Position numbers and translations under genes: made by a program. 37,263 nucleotides of DNA from Methylococcaceae bacterium (GTDB lineage Bacteria > Pseudomonadota > Gammaproteobacteria > Methylococcales > Methylomonadaceae), in assembly GCA_028748685.1 (NCBI GenBank), contig JAJRDU010000214.1:1-37263 (forward strand), given 5' to 3'. The notes below the pieces were generated by a model. It was not told the DNA's origin and did no database searches. It saw nothing but the letters and a program-made list of their open reading frames with translations. How positions within the stretch are numbered: position 1 is the stretch's first letter; each line of letters starts with the position of its first letter. This document shows positions 7,200 through 19,094 of the stretch, one piece after another.

Positions 7200-10199
7200 C
7201 TAAAACGCCCCGGCACTAATGCCCGCATAACCCGCCGCAGGTGTGGAAATCACATTGTTGCCCCCTGGCTGCCACTGCCATTGCCCCGAGGCCAGATGCT
7301 TGACGCATTTCCATTCGATGGCTGAATTCGTCGGCAATCCCTGGACTACGCCCGTCCATTTGGGGCTGTTGGGGCCAGGGCCGTTGTGGTTCGGCGGTGG
7401 ATTGTAGATGTATTCGTAATAGACGCTGGGCTGGAGTTTGATGGCCTTTTCCGGGTTCCAGCTACCCATGGAGGCTAGATTGCCGACGGCGTATATATTT
7501 TCCCCCAGCGCGGTCCAGCCGTTGTCGCAAACCAGATTCACGGTAGCGGTGCGCGCAACGGACTGCAGCGCCACATTAAAGGTTTTTGGCGTCGCGACAT
7601 CGCTGGTACCCGACTTAATCAGCACCAGATTGCGCTCGGCATTGAACCAGCCACTGTCAGCGGTCGCGAAGGATGCATCGGAATTTAGCTGCGGCAAGGC
7701 TACCCCGTTGAGTTTCACAGCGGTGGCTCGCGCATCCCGGACGATCAGACGAACGATGTTGTTACGCTGCGCAAGCGCACCGGAATAATTACCCACCGCC
7801 CGGTCGATGACCACTTTCACCCCATTACCGGTCTGTTGCTGAGAGATTGCGGTGCTACGCGTCTGATAGACAGGGCGCGTGTCCTGGCCATAGGCTAGCG
7901 TGGTACCGTCGTCCTCGTATAGGGAGAATTGGCTGGGTACGGTATCGGCATAGACTTGCATCAGCAGATCGCTCTGCGGAGCACCGCCTTGACGATGGCC
8001 GAATGCATCCTTGGTCTGCTCGTCCACCTGCATCATCGGGATGATCGCTCCTGCCCGGGCAAAGGCGGGCAACCTGAATATGCCCTCGATATAGGTCGGG
8101 AAATTATTCACCCATTGCCCTTCGCTATCGAACCAGTCGCGGGTATGATAGTTCACCCAGCGTCCCTTGGGTAAATAGATATTCCGTTTATATTCGCCGT
8201 GGCTGGCCACCACACCTACCAACAGGTCGCGGCCTATCAACTTTTCGTGGCCGATCTGCCGCACGTTCGGATCGTCCTGATAGTAATATACCAAGGGCGG
8301 CACCACGGGTTCTCCGGCTAGATAAGCGCGATAGGCGAGCGAGTAATAATAGGGGATCAACTCGTAACGCTGGCGGATGTTTTCGCGATTCGCACGCTGG
8401 TCGCCCACCAAATTGGGCGCGGTCTCGTAACGCAGCGATTTCTGGAAGCTGTTGTCCGTATGCGGGCGCACCGGCACATCGAACCAGGCGCCGTTGGCGA
8501 ACCACTGGGTATAGAGCTCATTCTGGTACTGCAGCTTTCCGGAGTGGCCGCCGTTGTAAGGCATGCCTTCGCGGCGGAAGCCGCCGATGTCGGAGCCGTA
8601 ATAGTCGATACCGGAAAACGACATGTGCATCTGGGCGTTCATGTGAGTCGCCAGCAAATCGAGGTTCGAACCGATATCGCCGGACCACATGGCGACGCCC
8701 CATCTATCAGACCCTGGCGCGCCGGAACGGCTGACGATGAAAGGCCTGCGGTTAATCAGGGTGTGATTCAACCTGTAGCCTTCGTAGATGGATTTGTTCC
8801 ATAAGAATGCGTACAGATTATGGATGTCGCCATGGGTATTTTTCGGGCCGGCGGATGTCGTTTCAACGCCATGATAACAAGCGGTACCATCGTATTTTTC
8901 CGGTTCACCCAAATCCGTCCAGTGCGCCGTTACGCCGTTGATTGCCAGATTCGGCAGACGCCGGTTGTTGTGTACCCAAGCGCCGGCATCCGGATTGGAC
9001 CAGTCTATCATCGCCGCCTGGCCGAACCAGTTGCTGAGAATGACCGACGACTGGGCTGAGGGATCACATTGGCTTGCGGTTCTGCCGTAGGCAAACATGC
9101 CTCCGGCTCCGTTCATCTGCGCGTAAGTAATGGTATTCTGGCTCACATAGGATTCTTCGATGGCCACCAAGCCAATATCGTCCTGGGCAAGGGCGTCGAT
9201 GTGGTTTTCGGGAGCGGGAAAATTAGCGAGGTCCCAATCCAGCCTTCCCATGGCGCTATCCGGGCTACCAGCCTGCACGCCGCCGAACCACTGCAAATCT
9301 AGCACGAAGCCATCCTGCGGAAAATTGGTTTGCTTCAGGCCATCGCGCAGTTTGCCGACCTGATCCCAGTTCTGGTAACCGAACTCGGACACCCACAAAC
9401 CGAAAGCCTTACGTGGCGGAACCGGCGGCGTGCCAACCAGCTCCATATAATCCTTGCGCAAATCAGGCAGATTCGGCCCCGACATCACATAAAAACGAAT
9501 CTGGTCGCCCCACATGCGCAGCTGCCACGGATCGCTGTTGAAATCCCAGCGCTGCTTGTAAACATTGTCCAGCAACAGCGCATAATTCAGGCCATTATTG
9601 CCCAGCGCATACATCACCGGGAAGTGAACGTTTCCCACCATCCCGGCCTGACCGAACGGCATGAAGCCATTTCCGTGCACTTGCTCCTGACCACTCGGTT
9701 GCTCCTCGCGCACCTTATGCTGCAACCAATCGCCATCCGCAGAACCCAAAACCTTGAATTGCTGGCCCAACCCGTAAACGTTGGTAATCTGCCCCTTGGC
9801 GAGACTCAATCCCTTCCAGTCTTTGTCGAGATCCCGCGGACAAATCGTCGTCAGTGCCTGCTGAGTGTCCTTATAGGTCAGCGCCAGGCACAGACTCTGC
9901 GCATCCACCGCGATCTTGAATTCAGCCGTTTCTATTACATTGCCCTGCTGCGAATAAGTGGCTGGACCGTGGTAATCGGTCTTGTGTATTGTCGGCGAGG
10001 TGTACAGCGGCGACGTGACATCAGGTCCAGGCCCAGTGGCGGAAAGCTCGAAGTGAATCAGATCGTCGTCCAGCGCTTCCACCATCAAATAGCGATTGCC
10101 GGAGACGAACTTCGCATGCTGAACCGCTGCCTGAAGCGTATTGCTCGCCAGCAACAACAGGGACAACAGCCAAATACCTATAAAGTGGATTGATTTCAT
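7200..10199 (-). CDS. Secreted GH31 alpha-glycosidase with C-terminal CBM20 starch-binding domain
   Basis: A 999-residue exported enzyme. The chosen ATG at 10199 follows AGAGGAG at proper spacing and begins a clear signal peptide (MKSIHFIG, a leucine-rich core, then LQA). A longer frame upstream would bury that signal. The GH31 barrel shows HWTDLGEP with the probable nucleophile D429, and SRSGAPGS...MWSGDIGSN with the probable acid/base D508. Beta-sandwich modules follow. Residues ~880-985 (ENIYAVGNLASMGSWNP, then a W-rich end) are a CBM20 starch-binding fold. The enzyme probably acts on alpha-glucans (glycogen or starch) outside the cytoplasm, as an alpha-glucosidase or transglucosylase. The exact reaction cannot be read from sequence. 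It stands alone, with no transport genes beside it. Confidence 0.88.
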   Translation of the reverse strand: MKSIHFIGIWLLSLLLLASNTLQAAVQHAKFVSGNRYLMVEALDDDLIHFELSATGPGPDVTSPLYTSPTIHKTDYHGPATYSQQGNVIETAEFKIAVDAQSLCLALTYKDTQQALTTICPRDLDKDWKGLSLAKGQITNVYGLGQQFKVLGSADGDWLQHKVREEQPSGQEQVHGNGFMPFGQAGMVGNVHFPVMYALGNNGLNYALLLDNVYKQRWDFNSDPWQLRMWGDQIRFYVMSGPNLPDLRKDYMELVGTPPVPPRKAFGLWVSEFGYQNWDQVGKLRDGLKQTNFPQDGFVLDLQWFGGVQAGSPDSAMGRLDWDLANFPAPENHIDALAQDDIGLVAIEESYVSQNTITYAQMNGAGGMFAYGRTASQCDPSAQSSVILSNWFGQAAMIDWSNPDAGAWVHNNRRLPNLAINGVTAHWTDLGEPEKYDGTACYHGVETTSAGPKNTHGDIHNLYAFLWNKSIYEGYRLNHTLINRRPFIVSRSGAPGSDRWGVAMWSGDIGSNLDLLATHMNAQMHMSFSGIDYYGSDIGGFRREGMPYNGGHSGKLQYQNELYTQWFANGAWFDVPVRPHTDNSFQKSLRYETAPNLVGDQRANRENIRQRYELIPYYYSLAYRAYLAGEPVVPPLVYYYQDDPNVRQIGHEKLIGRDLLVGVVASHGEYKRNIYLPKGRWVNYHTRDWFDSEGQWVNNFPTYIEGIFRLPAFARAGAIIPMMQVDEQTKDAFGHRQGGAPQSDLLMQVYADTVPSQFSLYEDDGTTLAYGQDTRPVYQTRSTAISQQQTGNGVKVVIDRAVGNYSGALAQRNNIVRLIVRDARATAVKLNGVALPQLNSDASFATADSGWFNAERNLVLIKSGTSDVATPKTFNVALQSVARTATVNLVCDNGWTALGENIYAVGNLASMGSWNPEKAIKLQPSVYYEYIYNPPPNHNGPGPNSPKWTGVVQGLPTNSAIEWKCVKHLASGQWQWQPGGNNVISTPAAGYAGISAGAF

Positions 10200-10856
10200 G
10201 TGGCTATACTCCTCTAATAACGAATTGACCGCGACCAGATAGACTCGCCCCCGGCGGCTACCGGTGGACAAAAAACCCATTTCTAATTTTGAATTCAGCC
10301 CATCGTGGGAAACGGACTAAATACACTTTTTGCACTTCACATTTCGGCACATTGCTTACCTCTCCCACGGGGAGGGGACTAATGCAATGCCCTTAAGTTA
10401 TGAATTAACCGTTCGCCTTTAAGCCCTGTGGGTAGTGAGCCTGTCGAAGGGTGAATGGTTAAGCCGCTCATGGTTCGACAAGGCTCTCCTGAGCGTCGTC
10501 GAAGGGCTCACCACTAACGGCTTAACTGAATGGCACTGGGGCTGGGGTGAGCTCATCAATAAACCGAAGTTTGAAACACTAAGACTATGCCTCTCATAAC
10601 CCAGCTAAAAATGATCAATCCTATCCGACGTAGGACCGCTCAATAAGCAAGTTAACCAATCAAGCGGCTGATTTTTTTACTAGAATAATGCTCCCGATAT
10701 TCGCTTCCGTCAAGATTGATTAAGGTCCAACCACCTGCGTTTCTTCGACAGTCTTGAGGGCGTTTTTTATATACAAATATTTGAGTATTGGGCCGAAGCG
10801 TGATCTTGTTCGGCTGTCCATGCCATGCAGCCAGCCGATCAACCCGCTGGCACTAT
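10200..10856. other. Spacer with dispersed intergenic repeats
   Basis: 657 bp between two minus-strand genes, with no credible ORF. It holds the ribosome binding site of the GH31 gene at its left edge and repeat material around 10361-10381 (CTCTCCC...GGGAGG type) and 10430-10530 (listed separately). The remainder, 10530-10856, is ordinary sequence in which I saw no clear terminator for the operon ending at 10857. Confidence 0.5.
10430..10530. repeat. REP-like palindromic repeat cluster
   Basis: Contains GGTTAAGCCG (10458-10467) and its inverse CGGCTTAAC (10519-10527) flanking internal copies of the GTTCGACAAGGCTC / CTGTCGAAGGG motif in opposite orientation. This TTCGAC-based unit is a widespread type of extragenic palindrome in Pseudomonadota. 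It is not coding. Confidence 0.65.
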
Positions 10857-12824
10857 TCAGGCAACGACGACCCTGTTGCGTCCGGAATGCTTAGCCTCAT
10901 AGAGTGCCCGATCGGCACGGACAAGAATCGCTCCGATGGTAAACTCTTCCCGCCCCAAGGTGGCCACGCCAATGGAGGTCGTGAAACGAAGCGGCGGGTT
11001 CTCGCCAACGGGCACTTTGACGGACGCCACCGCCCGACACAAGCGCTCGGCGACTTCCAAGGCTTCCTTGCTCCCGGTTTCCGGTAAGAGGATAGCGAAC
11101 TCCTCTCCGCCCAAGCGGCCGATCAAATCTTCCGCGCGCAAAGTAACCGTACTGACCTGTACAAATTTCTGCAAGACCAGATCCCCAACCTGATGCCCGT
11201 AACTATCGTTGACGCCTTTGAAATTGTCTAGATCGAGCATTAACAACGAAACCTCCAGTTTGTAGCGGTGAGCTCGCGCCAATTCGTGCTCGGCCAACTT
11301 CAGGAAATACCGCCGATTGGCGCAGCCGGTAAGCGGATCGGTGTGCGCTTCCTGTTCGAGCTTCCATTCCAGCTCCTTGCGGTCGGTAATATCCTGAATC
11401 ACGCCCAATAACTGGGCTCGCTGCACTCCTGTGTAGCCTTGAGCGGCCTTAACGGTTTGCGCCCGCACGTCAACTCCGAGCAATATCACTTCGCCTATGC
11501 CATGCAGCACACGCCCTCGTCCATCGGGCATGACGACTCTGAACTCGATGTCGAAGCGGCGGCCATCACGAGCCACTTTGATATGACTCGCCACTCTCTC
11601 CCTGTCATCAGCATGTATTGCCTGGAGAAACAAATCATAGCTGGGGATAATCGTTTCCGGCTCGTAACCGAGAATGCGGAAAGTCTCATCGGACCACTGG
11701 ACATCCCCTGTGTCCAGATCCATTTCCCAATGCCCGAGGCGCGCCATGGTTTGCGCCATGGTCAGGCTTCGTTCTCTCTTCCTTAGCGCCTCTTCGGTTT
11801 CCTTGATTCGCCTGTAGGTGCGCGCATTGTCGATAGCCAAACCGGCAACACCGGCGATGGAGATCGCCAAATTGAGGTAACGGGTGAGATATTCAGGAAA
11901 CGCGAAATGATCGACAACCACGACGCCAAGCGTTTCGCCCGCCCTGAAGATACGCAATAGGAAGCCCGACTGAGATTCCATCCAGGCCCAGTTATTATTC
12001 AAAGTTCGGACTTGCCTAAATAGATCGTCTGGCAGCGTATCGTCACATTGCGCAACACCACCCTCGAAGCGCACGTAGTAAAAGTCTTGCGGCGCGAACA
12101 ACATGTGAAACAGCTCTTCGATGGCGGCGATGGTTTCCCGCTCATCCTTCATTAACGGTAGCCGCCCCAAAAAATCCATCGCCGCTTTATGATCGGCCAG
12201 TTCGCGGGCAAAGTTACGTTCCTGCTCGCTCGCATCCTGTTGCGCTTCTCGCAGACGCCACTCCGCCACCAGACCGGCGAGCAGTTGGCGAATGTAATCG
12301 ATGCCTACGGCCATTCGACTAGCCGGGATATTGAGCACATTGGCTAGCTCGGCAAGCTTACTCGGCGCATCGACGACAACACCCGTATCCAGCAATACCA
12401 GTTCGCTGGCAAAGTCTTGAAAGAATCCCGCCGCGCTTCCCTCGTCGAATCCCATCTCGCTCAGATTCCCGCGCCAGTCAACCAACCAAGCCGGTGTGAT
12501 CAGGTACGCCCCGCGGGCGATCGCATCACTAACTAGGGTGCTACCCGCTAATAAATCGAAGCAATTCTCCAGCGACATCTGCGTTAGCGGCGGCCAACCA
12601 ACCGGTGGGTCGCCAAGTTCTTTCAAGCAGGAACGCCCGAAAAGAATCACCTGAGTGCAGCCTTCCCCCAACAAGTACCCTAGTTCGTCCCAACTAAGCG
12701 GGGGACGGCCACAGCGGGAAGGAAAGGCGGCGACGCCGACGTCGGACCAGCCCTCGGCTACGATCACGGCCTCGACCTCGGGTTGAAAGTTACGGCAGCA
12801 GAGGATGCATAGTTTTCCGGACAT
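10857..12824 (-). CDS. Diguanylate cyclase with DUF1638-like, GAF-like and PAS sensor domains
   Basis: A 655-residue cytoplasmic protein. Residues 1-200 resemble DUF1638, a domain encoded beside corrinoid methyltransferases: ILFGRSCLKEL, NCFDLLAGS and GAYLITPAWL match that family's pattern. Residues ~215-345 look GAF-like and end in a helix. Residues ~360-490 are a PAS_3/PAC unit (LGHWEMDLDTGDVQWSD to GVIQDITDRKELE). The rest is GGDEF with the active-site motif GGEEF at 572-576 and an RxxD product-inhibition site (RAED) five residues upstream, so it should make c-di-GMP and be feedback-inhibited. The ATG at 12824 lies 4 bp after the UroD-like stop, so the gene closes the operon. A longer frame to 12926 would overlap that gene and is rejected. 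The DUF1638 assignment is by motif only. Confidence 0.85.
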   Translation of the reverse strand: MSGKLCILCCRNFQPEVEAVIVAEGWSDVGVAAFPSRCGRPPLSWDELGYLLGEGCTQVILFGRSCLKELGDPPVGWPPLTQMSLENCFDLLAGSTLVSDAIARGAYLITPAWLVDWRGNLSEMGFDEGSAAGFFQDFASELVLLDTGVVVDAPSKLAELANVLNIPASRMAVGIDYIRQLLAGLVAEWRLREAQQDASEQERNFARELADHKAAMDFLGRLPLMKDERETIAAIEELFHMLFAPQDFYYVRFEGGVAQCDDTLPDDLFRQVRTLNNNWAWMESQSGFLLRIFRAGETLGVVVVDHFAFPEYLTRYLNLAISIAGVAGLAIDNARTYRRIKETEEALRKRERSLTMAQTMARLGHWEMDLDTGDVQWSDETFRILGYEPETIIPSYDLFLQAIHADDRERVASHIKVARDGRRFDIEFRVVMPDGRGRVLHGIGEVILLGVDVRAQTVKAAQGYTGVQRAQLLGVIQDITDRKELEWKLEQEAHTDPLTGCANRRYFLKLAEHELARAHRYKLEVSLLMLDLDNFKGVNDSYGHQVGDLVLQKFVQVSTVTLRAEDLIGRLGGEEFAILLPETGSKEALEVAERLCRAVASVKVPVGENPPLRFTTSIGVATLGREEFTIGAILVRADRALYEAKHSGRNRVVVA

Positions 12825-12828
12825 GGCG

Positions 12829-13866
12829 TTATTCCAGCCAATCCAGAGGATAGCGCCCCCATCGGTCCAAGGCATCGCGTATCGCCAACAGGACATCGTC
12901 CGGCACTTGCCATGGAATTTCGCCATGGTTATCGGAAAGTATGAAACCGCCGCCGCGCCCAGCCTTGGCGATAGCCGTCTTCACCTCGCTCTCAGCCTGC
13001 GCCGCCGTCCAGCGCCTCATTTCCACGCCGTTGAGGTTGCCGATCAGCGTAAATCGGTTGCGCGCGGCGGCTTTCCAGTCGGCCAGATCTTCGAGCGCGC
13101 TGACTCCGACCGCCGCCGTCCCGGTAGCCAGGAGGTCGTCGACAATACCCAAACCCCGCCCCGAAGCAAGATGGGTTGCCGCCGGCCCCTGAATTTGGCG
13201 CAGCGTTTCCACGGCCACCCGATGCCCGGTTTTCAGATACAGCTCGCGCGGAATATTCGTCGTGGAAGATAAAGGATCGAAATAGCAGATCGCCGTAGCA
13301 CCAGCCGCCATTTGGGCATTGGCCCACTCCAGACAAAAAGTCTGATTGACCGCCATCAGCCGGGCGAACCGCACCGGCTGCTCATAAATCAACTCGATGT
13401 AACGGTCGAACCCCATCTGCATGACCGGCAGGGAAAAAGGAGAAATTGCCACGCCGATGATAGGCACCGTGTCGCCCACCCTTTCCTTAAGCCCACGTAT
13501 GGTTTCCAGTCCGCGAACCAGACCCGCTGCCTCCATCACCCGCGGCGGCTCCAGGTAGTCGATGTCCTCGTCATGGCGAATGATCGGTTCCCCGGCATTG
13601 GGCGGCCCATTGTCGAAAAAAAGAGTATCGCCACCGAACGCCTCGACTTCGAGCGACGCGTAATAGAATGCCGACAGGCAGTCGCCACGGTATTTGGCCA
13701 GTAAACGAATCTGCCCCTCGACCACATATTCGGCGCGCGAAAAGTATTCGCGGATGCTCAGGCCCAGTTCCTTGGCCCCGTGCATGGTGGGAAAAAGAAA
13801 CAAGGGCACCCGATCCGGCTCTTGCTGGCCCATGGCGGTCAATACCCTTTGCATTGCCGTCATCAT
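12829..13866 (-). CDS. Uroporphyrinogen decarboxylase-fold (MtaA/CmuA-like) protein
   Basis: 345 residues with the UroD/methylcobamide methyltransferase fold: N-terminal MQRVLTAMGQQEPDRVP, central LSSTTNIPRELY and a C-terminal barrel strand. Genuine HemE features are not obvious, and pairing with a corrinoid protein argues for methyl transfer. The zinc site of MtaA/CmuA enzymes (HxC and a later Cys) is not conserved: the first position reads H232-L-A234, and the later one is SDNHGEIP (D312, N313, H314, E316). Metal binding, if any, must use other residues. The start ATG overlaps the corrinoid gene stop as ATGA, and the stop lies 4 bp before the diguanylate cyclase. The substrate is unknown. 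Confidence 0.85.
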   Translation of the reverse strand: MMTAMQRVLTAMGQQEPDRVPLFLFPTMHGAKELGLSIREYFSRAEYVVEGQIRLLAKYRGDCLSAFYYASLEVEAFGGDTLFFDNGPPNAGEPIIRHDEDIDYLEPPRVMEAAGLVRGLETIRGLKERVGDTVPIIGVAISPFSLPVMQMGFDRYIELIYEQPVRFARLMAVNQTFCLEWANAQMAAGATAICYFDPLSSTTNIPRELYLKTGHRVAVETLRQIQGPAATHLASGRGLGIVDDLLATGTAAVGVSALEDLADWKAAARNRFTLIGNLNGVEMRRWTAAQAESEVKTAIAKAGRGGGFILSDNHGEIPWQVPDDVLLAIRDALDRWGRYPLDWLE

Positions 13867-14495
13867 GCCGCCTCCTCGCGCCAGCGCTGCACTATCGTCA
13901 CGGCATCGGCCGCATTACACCCCATGGCATCGGCGCCTACCTCGCGCCATAGTTCGGAATCGAATAGGAAAGGCGCGCCGCCCACGACGATGCGCACTTG
14001 TGCGCCTCTGGCATCCAACGCCGCTCTCAACGTTTTCACCTTGAGCGCCGCGGGCAACATCAGGACGGAAACCAGCAGATATTTCACGCCATCGGCCAGG
14101 ATGCGCCCGACCAGCGCATCAACATCCATGCGGCCGTAATCAAGCACATCGAACCCACTGGCCTGCATGACGGACAATACGATACGCTTGCCGAGCGTGT
14201 GATAATCGTTGAGCACGACGATAGCCATCGGAGGGTAAGCTTTTCGCTCCACGGCCATTGCCGGGAGCACACGTTCTACGATGTCCTCGCAGATGCGGCT
14301 CGCCATGTAAATTTGGGACAAGGCAATTTTGCCAGCACTCCACTCATCTCCCAGCCGGATCAATAACGGCGTTATCAGTTCCTCGACGACCTGCATAGGT
14401 ACCTTCTGGCTGATAGCTTGTTGGAAAAGAGCCTCTACCCGAGGACGATCCAGCAACGCCAGTGCTTCATAAAACTCTAGTGCCAATTTATCCAT
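13863..14495 (-). CDS. Corrinoid (B12-binding) protein, MtaC/MtbC type
   Basis: A 210-residue methyl carrier. Residues 1-85 are the helical cap domain. The B12-binding domain follows with the base-off signature DxHxxG (D97-Y-H99-T-L-G102, H99 being the likely lower cobalt ligand), then SVL at 143-145 and VVGGAPF with G172-G173. The ATG at 14495 is chosen because AAGGAG precedes it at good spacing. An upstream ATG at 14528 in frame lacks one. This is the first gene of the operon, and its stop overlaps the UroD-like start. No cobalamin riboswitch (B12 box) was seen upstream. It should carry a methyl group between a donor and the UroD-like partner, or serve as a corrinoid sensor. Its donor-specific methyltransferase is not in the window. 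Confidence 0.9.
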   Translation of the reverse strand: MDKLALEFYEALALLDRPRVEALFQQAISQKVPMQVVEELITPLLIRLGDEWSAGKIALSQIYMASRICEDIVERVLPAMAVERKAYPPMAIVVLNDYHTLGKRIVLSVMQASGFDVLDYGRMDVDALVGRILADGVKYLLVSVLMLPAALKVKTLRAALDARGAQVRIVVGGAPFLFDSELWREVGADAMGCNAADAVTIVQRWREEAA

Positions 14496-15059
14496 CCCAC
14501 TCCTTATGTAGGCCTTGACTGACGCCATAAACGATCGTTAACGGTCAAATTTCGCCTTCAATCAGCATGCAAAAACCGGCTTTTACCAGTCAAAATGAAA
14601 ATCAAACCTCAACGTCCCAATCAGCCAACACGCCAAAACGACCCGCTGTAGAGGTTAAATTTCCATGTAAACCGCAAAAAATCTTGCCGACACATTCGAT
14701 ATAGGATCATAAACTGATTCGGTATCTGCTTCCAATCGCATATCGAATCAGACCTTCACTTGCTGGCTTGCCGGATAGCCGGAATGACGGCGCAGCTGTA
14801 AGCGTATTCCTACTCAACCAGTCACTGGTGATGTTATTTTCAATTTCAGTCCATGGCCCCAAACCAAAACATCGACAAGAAATGCTCGCCATGCGCACCT
14901 TGCCCGAAAGCAGTTTCACCCGGCACAAGCCACAGGTGCCGGAACGGCAGGTGCTTTGGCAGGGGAACAATGACGTCTTGGGCGCTTATGAATGATCCGG
15001 CCGCTCGTTGCCCGGAACACGAGACTTAGCGAACGACCAATACAGAAAAGCCGCCATGC
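14496..15059. other. Spacer upstream of the corrinoid operon, with a gene remnant
   Basis: 564 bp between minus-strand genes. It should contain the promoter of the corrinoid operon (I could not fix boxes with confidence) and holds the ferredoxin-domain remnant at 14890-14985. Around 14758-14795 is a short repeat-like segment (GCCGGATAGCCGGAATGACG) of a type common in intergenic regions. Confidence 0.5.
14890..14985 (-). pseudogene. Remnant of a plant-type [2Fe-2S] ferredoxin domain
   Basis: In one frame, bounded by an upstream TAA, the translation reads PCQSTCRSGTCGLC followed by RVKLLSGKVRM. The C-x4-C-x2-C spacing and the following R-V-K-L-x-S-G-x-V-R-M are typical of plant-type ferredoxin domains found in oxidoreductases. 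The fourth cluster cysteine and the rest of the domain are missing. The sequence after the motif runs into repeat-like DNA, and there is no start codon or ribosome binding site. It is therefore a decayed fragment, transferred or left behind by a deletion. It is not the N-terminal domain of a corrinoid activator (RACo/RamA), whose cysteine spacing differs. Confidence 0.65.
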
Positions 15060-16712
15060 TCAACTTCCACCGTTCACCTTGGTTTTCAAGTGCATCGCCA
15101 GGCGCTTCATGGCCGACGAGGCATCGTCGGCCGAGAGGTGCACATTAATAACGCTCGGCATGGTTCGGTTGTTCAGTGCATTGGTAAGCGCCTCCTCGAA
15201 TGCTTCTTCGGTACTGGCTTCATAACCTTTTAAAGGACCAAAGACTTCCCCCAGCCGATCGAAACGCCAAAGACTAATGTCGTTGAACGGCCCTTCCAGG
15301 ATGCAACGTTCGGTGCTATAGCCGCGATTGTTGAACACCACCACGATGGGATTCAATCCAAGCTGCGCGTGTGTCGAAAGTTCGGTGCCGGTCATTTGAA
15401 AAGCGCCGTCTCCCACCAGAATCAGCGCACGATGGTCGGGACGCGCAATTTGCGCGCCAAGCGCAACGGGTACGGCAAAGCCCATGGTGGCATAGAAACC
15501 GGAAGCCAGGAACTCGCTTTGCTCGTGCACCTGTAAATCGAGGGCCGCAAAAAGGCAGTCGCCAACATCGCAAACCACGATCATTTCATCACTAAGCGCC
15601 TGGTTGAGCCGCTCGACCATACGAGCGGTGGTAATCGGCCGGTCGGGTTCGGGAAACTCAATAGCAACCGATGCCTCGGTTTTCGGAAAAACCACCTCGT
15701 TTCGGGCGGACACGGCACTCAGTAATTTCGTTAAAAAATCGGCTAACGCGACGCGAGGATAACGGTGGGCGCTGATCACGACCTCGTTCATCGATGCGCG
15801 GACCATCAGATGCGGATCGAGTTTTGCGGTGTAGATGCCGGTATCGATGTCATTCAAAGTCACGCCCAACATCAGCAGTAAATCGGATTGCTCTACCGTG
15901 TAGCGCGCATTTTCCGAACTCATCGCGCCCTGATAGATGCCGAGATAGGCGGGATGCCGCTCGGCAATCACCGACTTGCCGCTTAACGTCGCTACGACCG
16001 GTAACTTGGCCCGTTCGACGAATTCCACCAATGTCCCTTGCAGCCGGCGCCGGTGTAATTCGACGCCGGCGATTATCATCGGCGAAACCGACTTGGCCAA
16101 TAGCGCCATCGTTTCGGCGACCGCTTCCGACAACGCGGTTTCATCGCTAACGAACGGTTCTATGGTTTCATCCGGCGCCGGATAGCCTTCAACCATGACC
16201 ATGTCGCGCGGAATTTCGATGTAAACCGGTTTACAAAACCGGCGAGCAGAGGCGAGGGCGCGGTCGATCTGCCGAAAAGCCATCACGGGATCATCAAGCA
16301 CCACGGACGCGCAGGTAATGCGTTCAAAAATTTCGCGTTGAAAGGTGAATGGTCCAAACCGGTGATGAAGCAAGGGATCGTCGCGCTGTTCGCGCCCCCC
16401 CGGCGCGCCGCTGATGACGACCACCGGGGAAGATTCCGCATAGGCACCGGCCACGGCGTTGACCGTATTAAGCGCCCCCACGCCATAAGTCACCGCCAAC
16501 GCACCCATACCCAGGCAGCGCGCATAACCGTCGGCCGCAAAGGCCGCGGTATCTTCCCGCGTGGTGCCTATATGCCGGACCGGACTCTTGGTCATCAGGT
16601 CATAGAACCCCAGCACATAATCGCCCGGAACCCCGAAAACATGCTTAACCCCCGTCTCGTAAAGACGCTTGAGGAGGTATTGGCCGATCGTGTCGAATTT
16701 AGCGGTGCTCAT
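15060..16712 (-). CDS. Thiamine diphosphate-dependent 2-keto acid decarboxylase (pyruvate/indolepyruvate type)
   Basis: 550 residues with the three-domain PDC/IPDC layout. The catalytic glutamate E53 lies in TTREDTAAFAADGYAR. The HH pair (H116-H117 in LLHHRFG) is typical of pyruvate and indolepyruvate decarboxylases rather than acetolactate synthases. The TPP/Mg site is GDGAFQ (D435) followed by NNRGYSTE. It would convert a 2-keto acid to an aldehyde and CO2. The best substrate (pyruvate, indolepyruvate, phenylpyruvate) cannot be decided. The ATG at 16712 is preceded by GAGGTGG, and a TTG five codons upstream is less likely. It has no clear operon partner. The upstream side carries an aconitase remnant and the downstream side a ferredoxin remnant. 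Confidence 0.88.
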   Translation of the reverse strand: MSTAKFDTIGQYLLKRLYETGVKHVFGVPGDYVLGFYDLMTKSPVRHIGTTREDTAAFAADGYARCLGMGALAVTYGVGALNTVNAVAGAYAESSPVVVISGAPGGREQRDDPLLHHRFGPFTFQREIFERITCASVVLDDPVMAFRQIDRALASARRFCKPVYIEIPRDMVMVEGYPAPDETIEPFVSDETALSEAVAETMALLAKSVSPMIIAGVELHRRRLQGTLVEFVERAKLPVVATLSGKSVIAERHPAYLGIYQGAMSSENARYTVEQSDLLLMLGVTLNDIDTGIYTAKLDPHLMVRASMNEVVISAHRYPRVALADFLTKLLSAVSARNEVVFPKTEASVAIEFPEPDRPITTARMVERLNQALSDEMIVVCDVGDCLFAALDLQVHEQSEFLASGFYATMGFAVPVALGAQIARPDHRALILVGDGAFQMTGTELSTHAQLGLNPIVVVFNNRGYSTERCILEGPFNDISLWRFDRLGEVFGPLKGYEASTEEAFEEALTNALNNRTMPSVINVHLSADDASSAMKRLAMHLKTKVNGGS

Positions 16713-16905
16713 TTTGAACCACCTCAAGGAACTCGGTTAACAGAAAAACAGCGACATCAAACCCGCTTAGCGTGATTACCAATCCCTTTGAATTTCGATT
16801 TGATGATCAACGCCGCCATCCACGAGTTTCGGGATAGAATCGAGATAGATACTAGCATGAGATCAAAAGCAGACAACTGAATTCAGCCTTGCCTTGAACA
16901 GAGTA

Positions 16906-17088
16906 TCAATGGTGGAGCCCCCCAATTTTCAGCATTTTCTTTAAAACCGTGCGCGGAATACCGCCATCCCGGTAGTATTGGACTTCTATCGGCGTATCGA
17001 TATGGCTTATTGTCTTGAAACAAGTGATGATGGCGCCACCGGTCCTGGTTGCCGTCACTTCGATTTCCTGTTTCGGCTCTGATACCAA
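16906..17088 (-). pseudogene. acnA: C-terminal remnant of aconitate hydratase (AcnA)
   Basis: The 60-codon frame reads EVTATRTGGA, then HIDTPIEVQYYRDGGI, then TVLKKMLK near its end. IDT.(V/I)EV.YYR.GGI followed by a V-L-(R/K)-(K/Q) helix is the very C-terminus of aconitase A. There is no sign of the [4Fe-4S] core or swivel domains upstream, where the frame soon hits a stop (TAA in GAGCGCTAA). The expected aconitase wording between the two conserved parts has drifted. It is a broken relic of the last ~50 residues; a functional aconitase is presumably elsewhere. Confidence 0.8.
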
Positions 17089-17152
17089 AAGAATCAGTTA
17101 GCGCTCCAGAATCTAATCAGCGAATCAATTCCGGCATAACGATTTAATTTGG

Positions 17153-17181
17153 TTTCTTTGGCACCACAAAAGTCTTATAGT
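17153..17181 (+). promoter_or_regulatory. Possible sigma-70 promoter of the bacterioferritin-like gene
   Basis: A good -10 box TATAGT (17176-17181) stands 17 bases after a weak -35, TTTCTT (17153-17158). It lies 34 bp before the start codon. I saw no obvious Fur box. Low confidence because the -35 is poor. Confidence 0.35.
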
Positions 17182-17214
17182 GAAGGCCGCTTCATCCTGA
17201 CACAGGAGGCTATC

Positions 17215-17658
17215 ATGGCTAACATCGAAATCGATCAAGACGCCGTCATCAAGGTGTTGAATAATATTCTCGAAGCCGAATTGGCTGGCGTTGTCCGCTA
17301 CACGCATTATGCTTTTATGGTTTTCGGCTATAACCGCATTCCGATCGTATCCTGGATGCGCGCCCAAGCCACCGAGTCCCTGGCGCATGCCGACCAGGCC
17401 GGCGAGATGATCACTCATCTAGGCGGCCATCCGTCCCTGGGCATCGGCCCGTTGTTGGAAACCCATCGCCACGACATCGGCGATATACTGCGCGAATCCC
17501 TAGACCACGAAACACGGGCCTTGGCGGAATACCATCGTTTGCTCGATCTGGTAAACGGGCGCAACGTGCTGCTGGAGGAATATGCGAGGCGGATGTGTGC
17601 CCTGGAAGAAACGCATGTGGGCGAGGTGCGGAAGATGCTGTCAAAACCCGGAGAATAA
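17215..17658 (+). CDS. Bacterioferritin-like ferritin-family protein
   Basis: 147 residues, a four-helix ferritin-like protein for iron oxidation and storage or oxidative protection. The start ATG at 17215 has a perfect AGGAGG at 17204-17209, and upstream frame extension is not used. Di-iron ligand candidates: E22 with Y29 in the first helix, E54 and H58 in ESLAHAD, E99 in the third helix, and E131-x-x-H134 in the last. The second helix has E-x3-H where E. coli Bfr has E51-M52-K53-H54. The position of the haem-ligand methionine is leucine, so haem binding of the classic type is doubtful. It is followed 32 bp later by fumC. Confidence 0.85.
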
Positions 17659-17690
17659 AGAGGCAAGGCTTTCGGCGGCGGACCAGAAGC

Positions 17691-19094
17691 ATGGGCGGCG
17701 AGTCACCCACCAACCGAATCGAGACCGACTCGATGGGCGCCATTGAGGTGCCCGCCGACAAATATTGGGGCGCGCAAACCCAGCGCTCGCTGGAACATTT
17801 CAAAATCGGCGACGAACGCCTGCCACGGCCGTTTATACGAGCTCTGGGCATCGTCAAACGTTGCGCGGCGCTGACCAACATCGCCCAATGCAACATTGAC
17901 GAAAAAATCGGACAGGCCATCGCCGATACGGCGCAAGATGTGATAAACGGCAAGGTGGACGAGCACTTTCCGCTGGTAATCTGGCAAACCGGCTCCGGCA
18001 CGCAATCGAATATGAACGCCAACGAAGTGATCGCCAATCTGGCTAGCCAGCGGCTAGGCGGTGCGCTGGGATCAAAATCGCCGGTCCATCCCAATGATCA
18101 TTGCAACCTCGGCCAATCGACCAACGACGTTTTTCCGACCGCGATGCATATCTCCACGGTCGAGCAACTCCATCATCTGTTGCTACCGGCACTGCGGCAT
18201 TTGCACCAGGCGCTATTGGAAAAATCCCAGGCATGGGAAGCCATCATCAAGATCGGACGCACCCATTTGCAGGACGCCACGCCGTTGACGCTGGGCCAGG
18301 AATTTTCCGGTTATGCCGCGCAACTGCAACTGGCTAACGAGCGGATTAACGACAGTATCAAACGCCTGTATCCGCTCGCCCAAGGCGGCACGGCGGTAGG
18401 GACCGGCCTGAATACCAAGCCCGGTTTTGCGGAAGTCTTTGCCGAACAAGTGGCGAGCCTTACCGGCCTGCCGTTCAGTTCCGCCGCTAACAAGTTCGAA
18501 GCGATGGCCAGCCACGATGCGCTGGTGGAAATTTCCGGAGTGCTGAACTGCATCGCCGTCGGCCTTAATAAAATCGCCAACGACATCCGCCTGCTCGGCT
18601 CCGGTCCTCGATCCGGGCTGGGCGAGCTGATTCTGCCGGCCAATGAACCCGGCTCGTCTATCATGCCGGGTAAAGTCAATCCCACCCAATGCGAAGCACT
18701 CAGCATGGTATGCGCTCAGGTCATGGGCAACCACGTCACCGTGACGATTGCCGGCGCCCAGGGGCATTTGGAGCTGAATGCCTTCAAGCCGGTCATTATT
18801 TTTAACGTGCTGCAATCGATACGGCTGCTAGGCGATGCGGCGATCAGCTTTACCGATCACTGCGTAACAGGCATAAAGCCGGATACCGGCCGCATTGCCG
18901 AGATGATGGAAAGATCGCTGATGCTGGTCACCGCCCTGGTTCCGCACATCGGTTACGACAACGCCGCCCATATCGCGAAAATGGCTTTAAACAATCGAAG
19001 CACACTGCGCGAAGAGGCTGTTGCCAGCGGTTTAATCACCGCCGAAATGTTCGATGCGGTAGTCCGGCCGGAACGGATGATCTCGCCAAGATAG
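17691..19094 (+). CDS. fumC: Class II fumarate hydratase
   Basis: 467 residues, the oxygen-stable, iron-free fumarase of the TCA cycle (fumarate + water to malate). The superfamily signature [11 protein letters not shown] starts at G321 and includes the catalytic serine. [13 protein letters not shown] starts at T100. [16 protein letters not shown] holds the catalytic-site T191-H192. The ATG at 17691 gives the standard N-terminus ending in [20 protein letters not shown] longer frame from 17595 lies inside the bacterioferritin gene and is rejected. The ribosome binding site is weak, which suggests coupling to the gene 32 bp upstream. An aspartase or argininosuccinate lyase is excluded by the FumC-type motifs and the start. 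Confidence 0.95.

Follow-up and report, generated by a model that had tools for sequence, protein, structure and literature searches.

A corrinoid/UroD gene pair linked to a DUF1638-GAF-PAS-GGDEF protein in a Methylococcaceae genome: a probable sensory cassette with exchangeable outputs

The subject of this analysis is a set of three adjacent genes (here called the triad) from a Methylococcaceae bacterium (NCBI GenBank assembly GCA_028748685.1, contig JAJRDU010000214.1, positions 1 to 37,263), that whole stretch of 37,263 nucleotides being termed the window. The genes encode a corrinoid-binding protein, a UroD-like protein and a diguanylate cyclase that begins with DUF1638 and GAF domains, and their features are as follows.

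13863..14495, minus strand: gene for a corrinoid (B12)-binding protein, 210 amino acids, with a helical cap domain and a Rossmann B12 domain (Pfam)
14190..14207, minus strand: DxHxxG motif (DYHTLG), site of the lower axial His ligand for cobalt
12829..13866, minus strand: gene for a UroD-superfamily (MtaA/CmuA/HemE-like) protein, 345 amino acids (Pfam URO-D)
10857..12824, minus strand: gene for the fused sensor diguanylate cyclase DUF1638-GAF-PAS-GGDEF, 655 amino acids
12225..12824, minus strand: DUF1638 domain, residues 1-200, two-lobed alpha/beta model (Pfam PF07796 and AlphaFold)
12795..12797, minus strand: DUF1638 Cys10, conserved (alignment)
12627..12629, minus strand: DUF1638 Cys66, conserved (alignment)
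12561..12563, minus strand: DUF1638 Cys88, conserved (alignment)
11763..12209, minus strand: GAF domain, residues 206-354 (predicted fold; missed by Pfam)
11484..11702, minus strand: PAS domain (PAS_3), residues 375-447 (Pfam, 51.6 bits)
10872..11348, minus strand: GGDEF diguanylate cyclase domain, residues 493-651 (Pfam, 161.3 bits)
11127..11138, minus strand: RxxD (RAED) inhibitory I-site, five residues ahead of GGEEF
11097..11111, minus strand: GGEEF active-site motif

The corrinoid and UroD genes overlap by ATGA, a gap of 4 nucleotides separates the UroD gene from that of the cyclase, and all three are co-directional; they are likely to form one operon. A ribosome-binding site (AAGGAG) lies 4 nucleotides ahead of the corrinoid gene's ATG at 14495, within a longest frame that begins at 14528 (the Pfam scan of this frame was made from 14498). 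An initial annotation, made from the letters of the DNA alone, had described this tight linkage, a cyclase with intact GGEEF and I-site motifs, and a triad beside which neither a RACo activator nor a donor methyltransferase is recognised; all three descriptions proved accurate.

The corrinoid protein displays the features of the corrinoid-methyltransferase type, namely B12-binding_2 and B12-binding domains (48.4 and 51.5 bits, both above the Pfam cut-off) together with an intact DxHxxG motif, and it scores below the TIGR02370 (pyl_corrinoid) cut-off (68.6 versus 215.3 bits). In the 83-locus family described below, the D, H and G of that motif are kept in 82 rows, the remaining row being a gap. 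The UroD-like protein matches Pfam URO-D with 159.1 bits and lies below the NCBIfam cut-offs for both TIGR01463 (MtaA/CmuA; 84.6 versus 235.4 bits) and TIGR01464 (HemE; 52.0 versus 302.95 bits). Its best relatives of solved structure, by sequence, are HemE chains (PDB 3cyv, 59.5 bits), followed by MtaA (4ay7) at 48.5, and its His314-Gly aligns with an HG pair of HemE. Residues H314, G315, E316 and W286 are retained in all 83 family rows, and H232 and A234 each in 82. The HxC motif of MtaA, which binds zinc, is missing: the protein reads HLASG where 4ay7 reads HI-CG, with His falling on His and Ser on Cys. This absence, together with the score below the cut-off, ruled out an identity as a coenzyme M-type thiol methyltransferase.

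The N-terminus of the cyclase had been likened to DUF1638, and a search with hidden Markov models (HMMs) bore this out, with a PF07796 match above the gathering cut-off (30.8 bits versus 27, E 3.2e-7, residues 65-182 on profile positions 37-161). Across 101 distinct DUF1638 sequences, both fused and free (104 aligned rows minus 3 repeats), Cys10, Cys66 and Cys88 are kept in 99, 101 and 100, respectively (60, 61 and 60 of the 61 fused sequences, and 39, 40 and 40 of the other 40); this three-cysteine criterion was derived here and has no published definition. An AlphaFold model of DUF1638 alone (predicted local distance difference test (pLDDT) 96.5) places these residues at or shortly past strands 4-10, 56-63 and 80-84, and the model suggests that they line one cleft. 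The predicted fold, readable only as a two-lobed alpha/beta cleft, returned no clear solved relative in structure searches (best VIA Z 7.9, to 9s3o_D), the Foldseek matches being weak and including the PrpR sensory domain (2pju; template modelling score 0.41). The GAF assignment was likewise correct by predicted fold, although the Pfam scan of the cyclase found no GAF family (maximum E 10, with HMMER filters dropping most matches above about 0.1): in an AlphaFold model of residues 1-365 (pLDDT 95.7), residues 206-354 match the GAF domain 3jab_B (Z 15.4, 147 aligned, root-mean-square deviation 2.9), the GAF domain of KdpD (4qpr) at Z 14.8, and many further GAF entries. The intact GGDEF domain suggests that the cyclase produces cyclic di-GMP (c-di-GMP).

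To define the wider family, named genomes were searched using only the UroD alignment, without regard to neighbouring genes; 312 pattern matches resulted, and 274 relatives. The top 80 of these 274, plus seven loci from the order Methylococcales and minus four repeated contigs (L053/L074, L015/L102, L016/L090 and L050/L092), constitute 83 distinct loci related through UroD or DUF1638-GAF similarity. In these loci a corrinoid gene adjoins the UroD gene, almost always accompanied by a sensor of GAF type. All 83 have the corrinoid gene, and in 81 its stop and the start of the UroD domain are at most 60 nucleotides apart; a sensor was found in 78, and in 70 of those no more than 100 nucleotides separate the UroD stop from the beginning of the sensor domain (in L129, the corrinoid gene sits between UroD and sensor). 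Conservation of the triad in other genomes, which the initial annotation had proposed as a check, therefore extends far outside Methylococcales. Within the order itself, 6 of 311 genomes were seen to carry the triad, in seven loci altogether (a lower bound).

Domain labels in the family survey come from HMMs built on few seeds, not from Pfam, and from mechanically drawn frames; those of L078 and L129, missed by the automatic step, were assigned by hand. Eight loci (L091, L099, L101, L103, L106, L107, L127 and L133) reach the contig end ahead of the sensor, leaving 75 that are readable. In 63 of these a GAF or DUF1638-GAF sensor is joined either to a histidine kinase (53, one of them, in L104, apparently split) or to GGDEF (10); sensor-kinase fusions proper thus number 52, including two (L146 and L148) without detected DUF1638. 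Ten further loci carry a small GAF-only protein after the pair (nine in Desulfobacteraceae, one in Thermodesulfovibrio), and the remaining two are L070, with a free DUF1638, and L114, without a sensor gene. Carriers of fused sensors include Proteobacteria, Desulfobacterota, Chloroflexi, Nitrospirota and others; many are named as sulfate reducers or other sediment anaerobes, and Zoogloea ramigera and Desulfonema magnum are among the named isolates with kinase-output forms. In a sample spread over the phylum of the window, a DUF1638-GAF model matched 18 of 398 genomes (own included; E <=1e-15, some matches partial). Of the 83 loci, 62 have a further signalling gene at a distance of 6 kb or less, and 24 have a GGDEF or EAL domain, either as part of the fusion or close by; these counts have no background rate for comparison.

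Several members of the family depart from the common arrangement. The GAF-only loci are L109 (11002-11781), L122, L126, L128, L135, L141, L142, L144, L145 and L147, and the proteins of L109 and L126 end in a CxxC zinc-ribbon-like tail. In two Nitrospirota loci (L146:11087-12754 and L148:11051-12340) a GAF domain is joined to a kinase and DUF1638 is not detected; judging from these two, the contact that stays constant throughout the family may be the GAF domain. In a metagenome-assembled genome (MAG) of Hyphomicrobiales (L070:2570-11633), two cassette types follow one another, the first consisting of RACo, a one-frame corrinoid-UroD fusion, DUF1638 and a PAS-histidine kinase-receiver protein, and the second of a window-type corrinoid protein, a UroD (81% to that of the window) and the free DUF1638.

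The output joined to this input is exchanged within the family. On a tree built from UroD alone (83 rows: 52 histidine kinase, 10 GGDEF and 21 not counted; a quick search that left 32 of the 80 inner branches weakly supported), the fused output changes at least four times. The UroD of the window falls in an eight-row set (Shimodaira-Hasegawa-like approximate likelihood ratio support 96) that comprises seven GGDEF loci plus L070 and includes MAGs of Comamonadaceae, Hyphomicrobiales and Holophagaceae; two Methylobacter GGDEF loci cluster with four histidine kinase loci of the window's own family, and one Chloroflexota GGDEF locus stands separately. GGEEF and I-site are kept in all ten GGDEF fusions. 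A conserved input with an exchangeable output is, as far as such sequence comparisons indicate, the pattern of a sensor family. In the initial annotation the methylation or redox state of the corrinoid, or occupancy of the UroD-like protein, was suggested to set c-di-GMP output; across the family, GGDEF is fused in 10 of the 62 loci with a labelled output and histidine kinases occupy the other 52, which makes c-di-GMP one output among several.

Three DUF1638 genes are present in this genome (77% complete), each within a corrinoid operon beside signalling genes; that of the window is the third, and the operons of the other two run into kinases. On contig C2 (L012:583-12608) the order is an MtaC-like protein, MtaB, a RamA-like activase, DUF1638 and a signalling frame of up to 2532 amino acids with protein kinase, AAA, GAF, PocR, PAS, HisKA, HATPase and receiver domains. 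The MtaB protein matches PF12176 with 657.6 bits and the NCBIfam MtaB model with 639.4 (below its cut-off of 720), aligns with 2i2x across nearly its entire length, and is read as retaining the zinc ligands, which we take to be Glu164, Cys220 and Cys269; the activase scores 725.5 against TIGR04270, above a cut-off of 500. In what is likely a methanotroph, this operon is a candidate for methanol sensing; related sets were seen in L054 and L062. On contig C138 (L013:5674-13722) the order is RACo, corrinoid protein, UroD, DUF1638, a histidine kinase-receiver protein and a receiver-PAS-GGDEF-EAL protein, with the UroD reading YYCG at the position of HICG in MtaA.

An order-wide search yielded 68 DUF1638 matches, spread over 57 of the 311 genomes; this is a lower bound, as one fused case (L016) was missed. 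Twenty-nine of the 68 matches plus L016 were examined, and the resulting 30 loci comprise seven of the window type, 18 of a free-DUF1638 corrinoid type, three of the MtaB type and two exceptions (L056 and L052, both described below). The operon type of C138 recurs, with variations, in the 18 free-DUF1638 loci, where RACo was seen in 16, one locus lacks UroD and one begins at a contig end. A kinase, receiver or GGDEF gene lies within or beside the set in 27 of the 30; in L018, the contig holds just the first part of the GAF-type gene that follows. Individual arrangements observed include (i) L066 (4854-7842), in which RACo, corrinoid and DUF1638 genes without UroD lie behind a PAS-histidine kinase-receiver gene; and (ii) L056 (61-4487), in which corrinoid, DUF1638 and RACo genes occupy a 4.6-kb contig with no signalling gene seen on it. 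The DUF1638 of L056 has the highest Pfam score in the order search, and this locus is a possible non-signalling relative.

The reading of these loci as sensors is well supported, and it is probable that the corrinoid/UroD pair serves as the input of a sensory cassette. That the triad forms a three-protein receptor, with components of corrinoid methyltransferase type feeding a diguanylate cyclase, is held with less assurance, as somewhat better than an even bet, while the chance that the quantity read is the methyl or redox state of the corrinoid falls a little short of even. In such a receptor the UroD-like protein would bind a small, probably methylated, ligand; UroD and corrinoid protein together would shift the cobalt between methyl-Co(III) and Co(II)/Co(I); DUF1638 would dock on the corrinoid protein and read the cobalt state at its three-cysteine cleft; and the change would be relayed through GAF and PAS to GGDEF, thereby setting c-di-GMP output. 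We infer the complex, its ligand, the methyl or redox reading and the effect on c-di-GMP from the sequences and their arrangement. By analogy with the sister cassette that contains MtaB, the ligand might, at a guess, be methanol or another one-carbon compound.

A fuller version of this proposal, judged somewhat less likely than not, would make these loci a new class of receptor: an active corrinoid methyl-transfer pair would do the chemical sensing, a three-cysteine DUF1638-GAF transducer would read the methyl or redox state of the pair and feed GGDEF or one of several histidine kinases across phyla, and the three cassettes of this genome would allow a likely methane oxidiser to sense one-carbon compounds (for example, methanol) and to set c-di-GMP and phosphorelays. 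DUF1638 could, in that version, accept a methyl group on a cysteine, much as Ada takes a methyl group on cysteine, and methyl transfer would then itself be the signal.

Several observations weigh against the receptor so described. DUF1638 cannot be the reader everywhere, because 12 of the 75 readable loci have a GAF domain without detected DUF1638 (10 of them in small proteins without a fused output), making DUF1638 optional; its Pfam match in the cyclase, moreover, lies merely 3.8 bits above the cut-off. The pair in L114 adjoins no sensor gene, and a free window-type DUF1638 in Methylococcales (L052:7286-7912) has no corrinoid or UroD gene detected nearby. A loose H-box pattern, present in 43 of 50 histidine kinase fusions tested, is absent in seven, and a UroD without HxC suggests that methyl transfer is not assured. 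Ordinary reductive reactivation also seems to be missing from 16 of 35 carrier genomes, because RACo was found in 19 and not in the rest, among which are the isolates Zoogloea oleivorans and Z. ramigera (the 35 being hand-picked rather than all carriers, with many incomplete MAGs whose completeness is mostly not given). A MetH reactivation domain occurs in 14 of those 16 (three matches with an internal stop), and is taken to serve MetH rather than the cassette. The cassette therefore seems able to do without RACo, and no other result counts as heavily against simple methyl turnover. Its resetting would fall to DUF1638 or some other reductant, unless the cobalt does not pass through Co(I) at all.

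The missing RACo is also one of the observations that favour a redox or oxygen sensor, in which the cobalt, the cysteines of DUF1638 (in thiol form or by binding a metal), or both would report, and UroD would be a scaffold without a methyl substrate. The conservation of the three cysteines and a UroD that lacks HxC agree with that explanation, but the conservation of the UroD residues listed above (His314 to Glu316, Trp286 and His232) exceeds the needs of a scaffold, and the GAF-only relatives retain corrinoid and UroD genes while showing no DUF1638; this explanation is considered unlikely. More doubtful still is a UroD that senses a tetrapyrrole or other ligand without catalysis, alongside a corrinoid protein that is structural or reports cobalamin supply. 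Such a role would suit the HemE relationship (3cyv as top PDB relative and the shared HG pair), but the protein scores far below the HemE cut-off, and its strict pairing with a corrinoid protein of two domains, whose DxHxxG motif is nearly invariant, points to chemistry at cobalt.

A metabolic methyltransferase operon with which the cyclase is merely co-regulated has a precedent, since methanogens and acetogens use corrinoid and UroD pairs in catabolism, but it is difficult to reconcile with the fusion of DUF1638 to the sensor and with the swapping of kinases and GGDEF on the same input, and is considered very improbable. RACo was flagged within 6 kb in only 2 of the 83 loci, one of which (L015) reads as NqrF-like from its sequence, and the two RACo genes of this genome lie away from the triad, on contigs C2 and C138; these positions and counts ruled out metabolism with an adjacent RACo. 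When flanking frames were clustered, no metabolic gene could be named as recurring, although antisense frames of the triad dominated the clusters and make this weak evidence. The preference for sensing over metabolism that the initial annotation had drawn from missing neighbours was borne out as to sensing, but the chemistry need not be idle, given the two RACo genes elsewhere. We know of no role for a UroD partner in CarH. A light sensor of the CarH or photocobilin type, in which an adenosylcobalamin-bound corrinoid protein would drive the cyclase, can point to an existing B12 photoreceptor fused to a diguanylate cyclase (PMC11796333) and to a weak CarH match of the corrinoid protein (40.1 bits versus a cut-off of 400), but does not show the signature published for such receptors (GxxW, EH, GxxH and GxxxP; PMC11796333) and is rejected for that reason, with very little probability left to it. 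Of that signature the corrinoid protein of the triad has just GxxW; the family rows keep the G and W of GxxW in 80 of 83 (3 gaps), EH in none of 80, the glycine of GxxH in a single row of 82 and the proline of GxxxP in a single row of 83. The many carriers named as sulfate reducers or sediment anaerobes also speak against a light sensor.

Two neighbouring regions of the window were compared with same-genus genomes. The stretch at 15060-19094 has partial matches in 27 of 37 (own included), the principal ones having 71-82% DNA identity; these fit the genus, and a binning error of the contig was thereby ruled out. The gene at 7200-10280 returned in effect only its self-match and is uninformative on this point.

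Methanotrophs and many bacteria of sediment and sludge must sense one-carbon compounds, and to our knowledge few receptors for such compounds are known. If the receptor proposed here is real, a widespread receptor based on B12-methyl chemistry would tie methyl metabolism to c-di-GMP and two-component signalling, DUF1638 would gain a testable role, and output-swapped natural variants would allow direct comparison; isolates that carry kinase-output forms may make genetics and biochemistry feasible.

The individual parts have precedents, each of which is compared here with the portion of the source that was available. In Phaeobacter, a split methionine synthase system also places DUF1638 beside a B12-binding protein gene, and a free DUF1638 and a RamA-like protein are needed for methionine synthesis, with no specific function proposed in that text (PMC5764234); a later paper predicts that DUF1638 recharges cobalamin together with RamA (PMC12478193). 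Because methionine synthesis there needs DUF1638, its action with corrinoid methyl transfer has genetic support, but in Phaeobacter it is a separate metabolic protein, whereas here it forms the N-terminus of a GAF-PAS-GGDEF signalling protein (PMC5764234). CarH and the photocobilins likewise use a corrinoid-binding domain as sensory input, in one case with a diguanylate cyclase domain, but have neither UroD nor DUF1638 (uroporphyrinogen goes unmentioned in the text available), and their EH, GxxH and GxxxP motifs are absent here (PMC11796333). MtaABC, CmuA and the type 1 mlp clusters similarly combine a UroD-superfamily protein with a corrinoid protein, but are metabolic, and MtaA has a zinc HxC motif where the UroD-like protein of the triad reads H-L-A-S-G. 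The available text on the mlp clusters (PMC10418091) makes no mention of histidine kinase, GGDEF, signal or two-component.

We know of no corrinoid-UroD-DUF1638 input in RdmS of Methanosarcina. That protein is also a sensor kinase tied to methyltransferase genes, but is, by the title of its description, a thiol-based redox kinase (PMC11784639). For PocR and MEDS domains the predicted signals are simple hydrocarbon derivatives or growth substrates, and these domains thus share with the cassette a predicted substrate sensing by kinases (PocR being present in the MtaB-linked kinase of this genome), but they reside inside one protein, whereas here an enzyme pair would be the receptor (PMC1592074). 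With respect to the MtaB-linked cassette, one acidophilic methanotroph is recorded as lacking MtaB (PMC2474590). Searches of open-licence PMC papers, most of them judged from their listed entries, gave no description of the cassette, and domain-architecture databases may list the fusion automatically. The parts are known, and their joint use as a signal receptor would be, as far as the literature search reaches, new.

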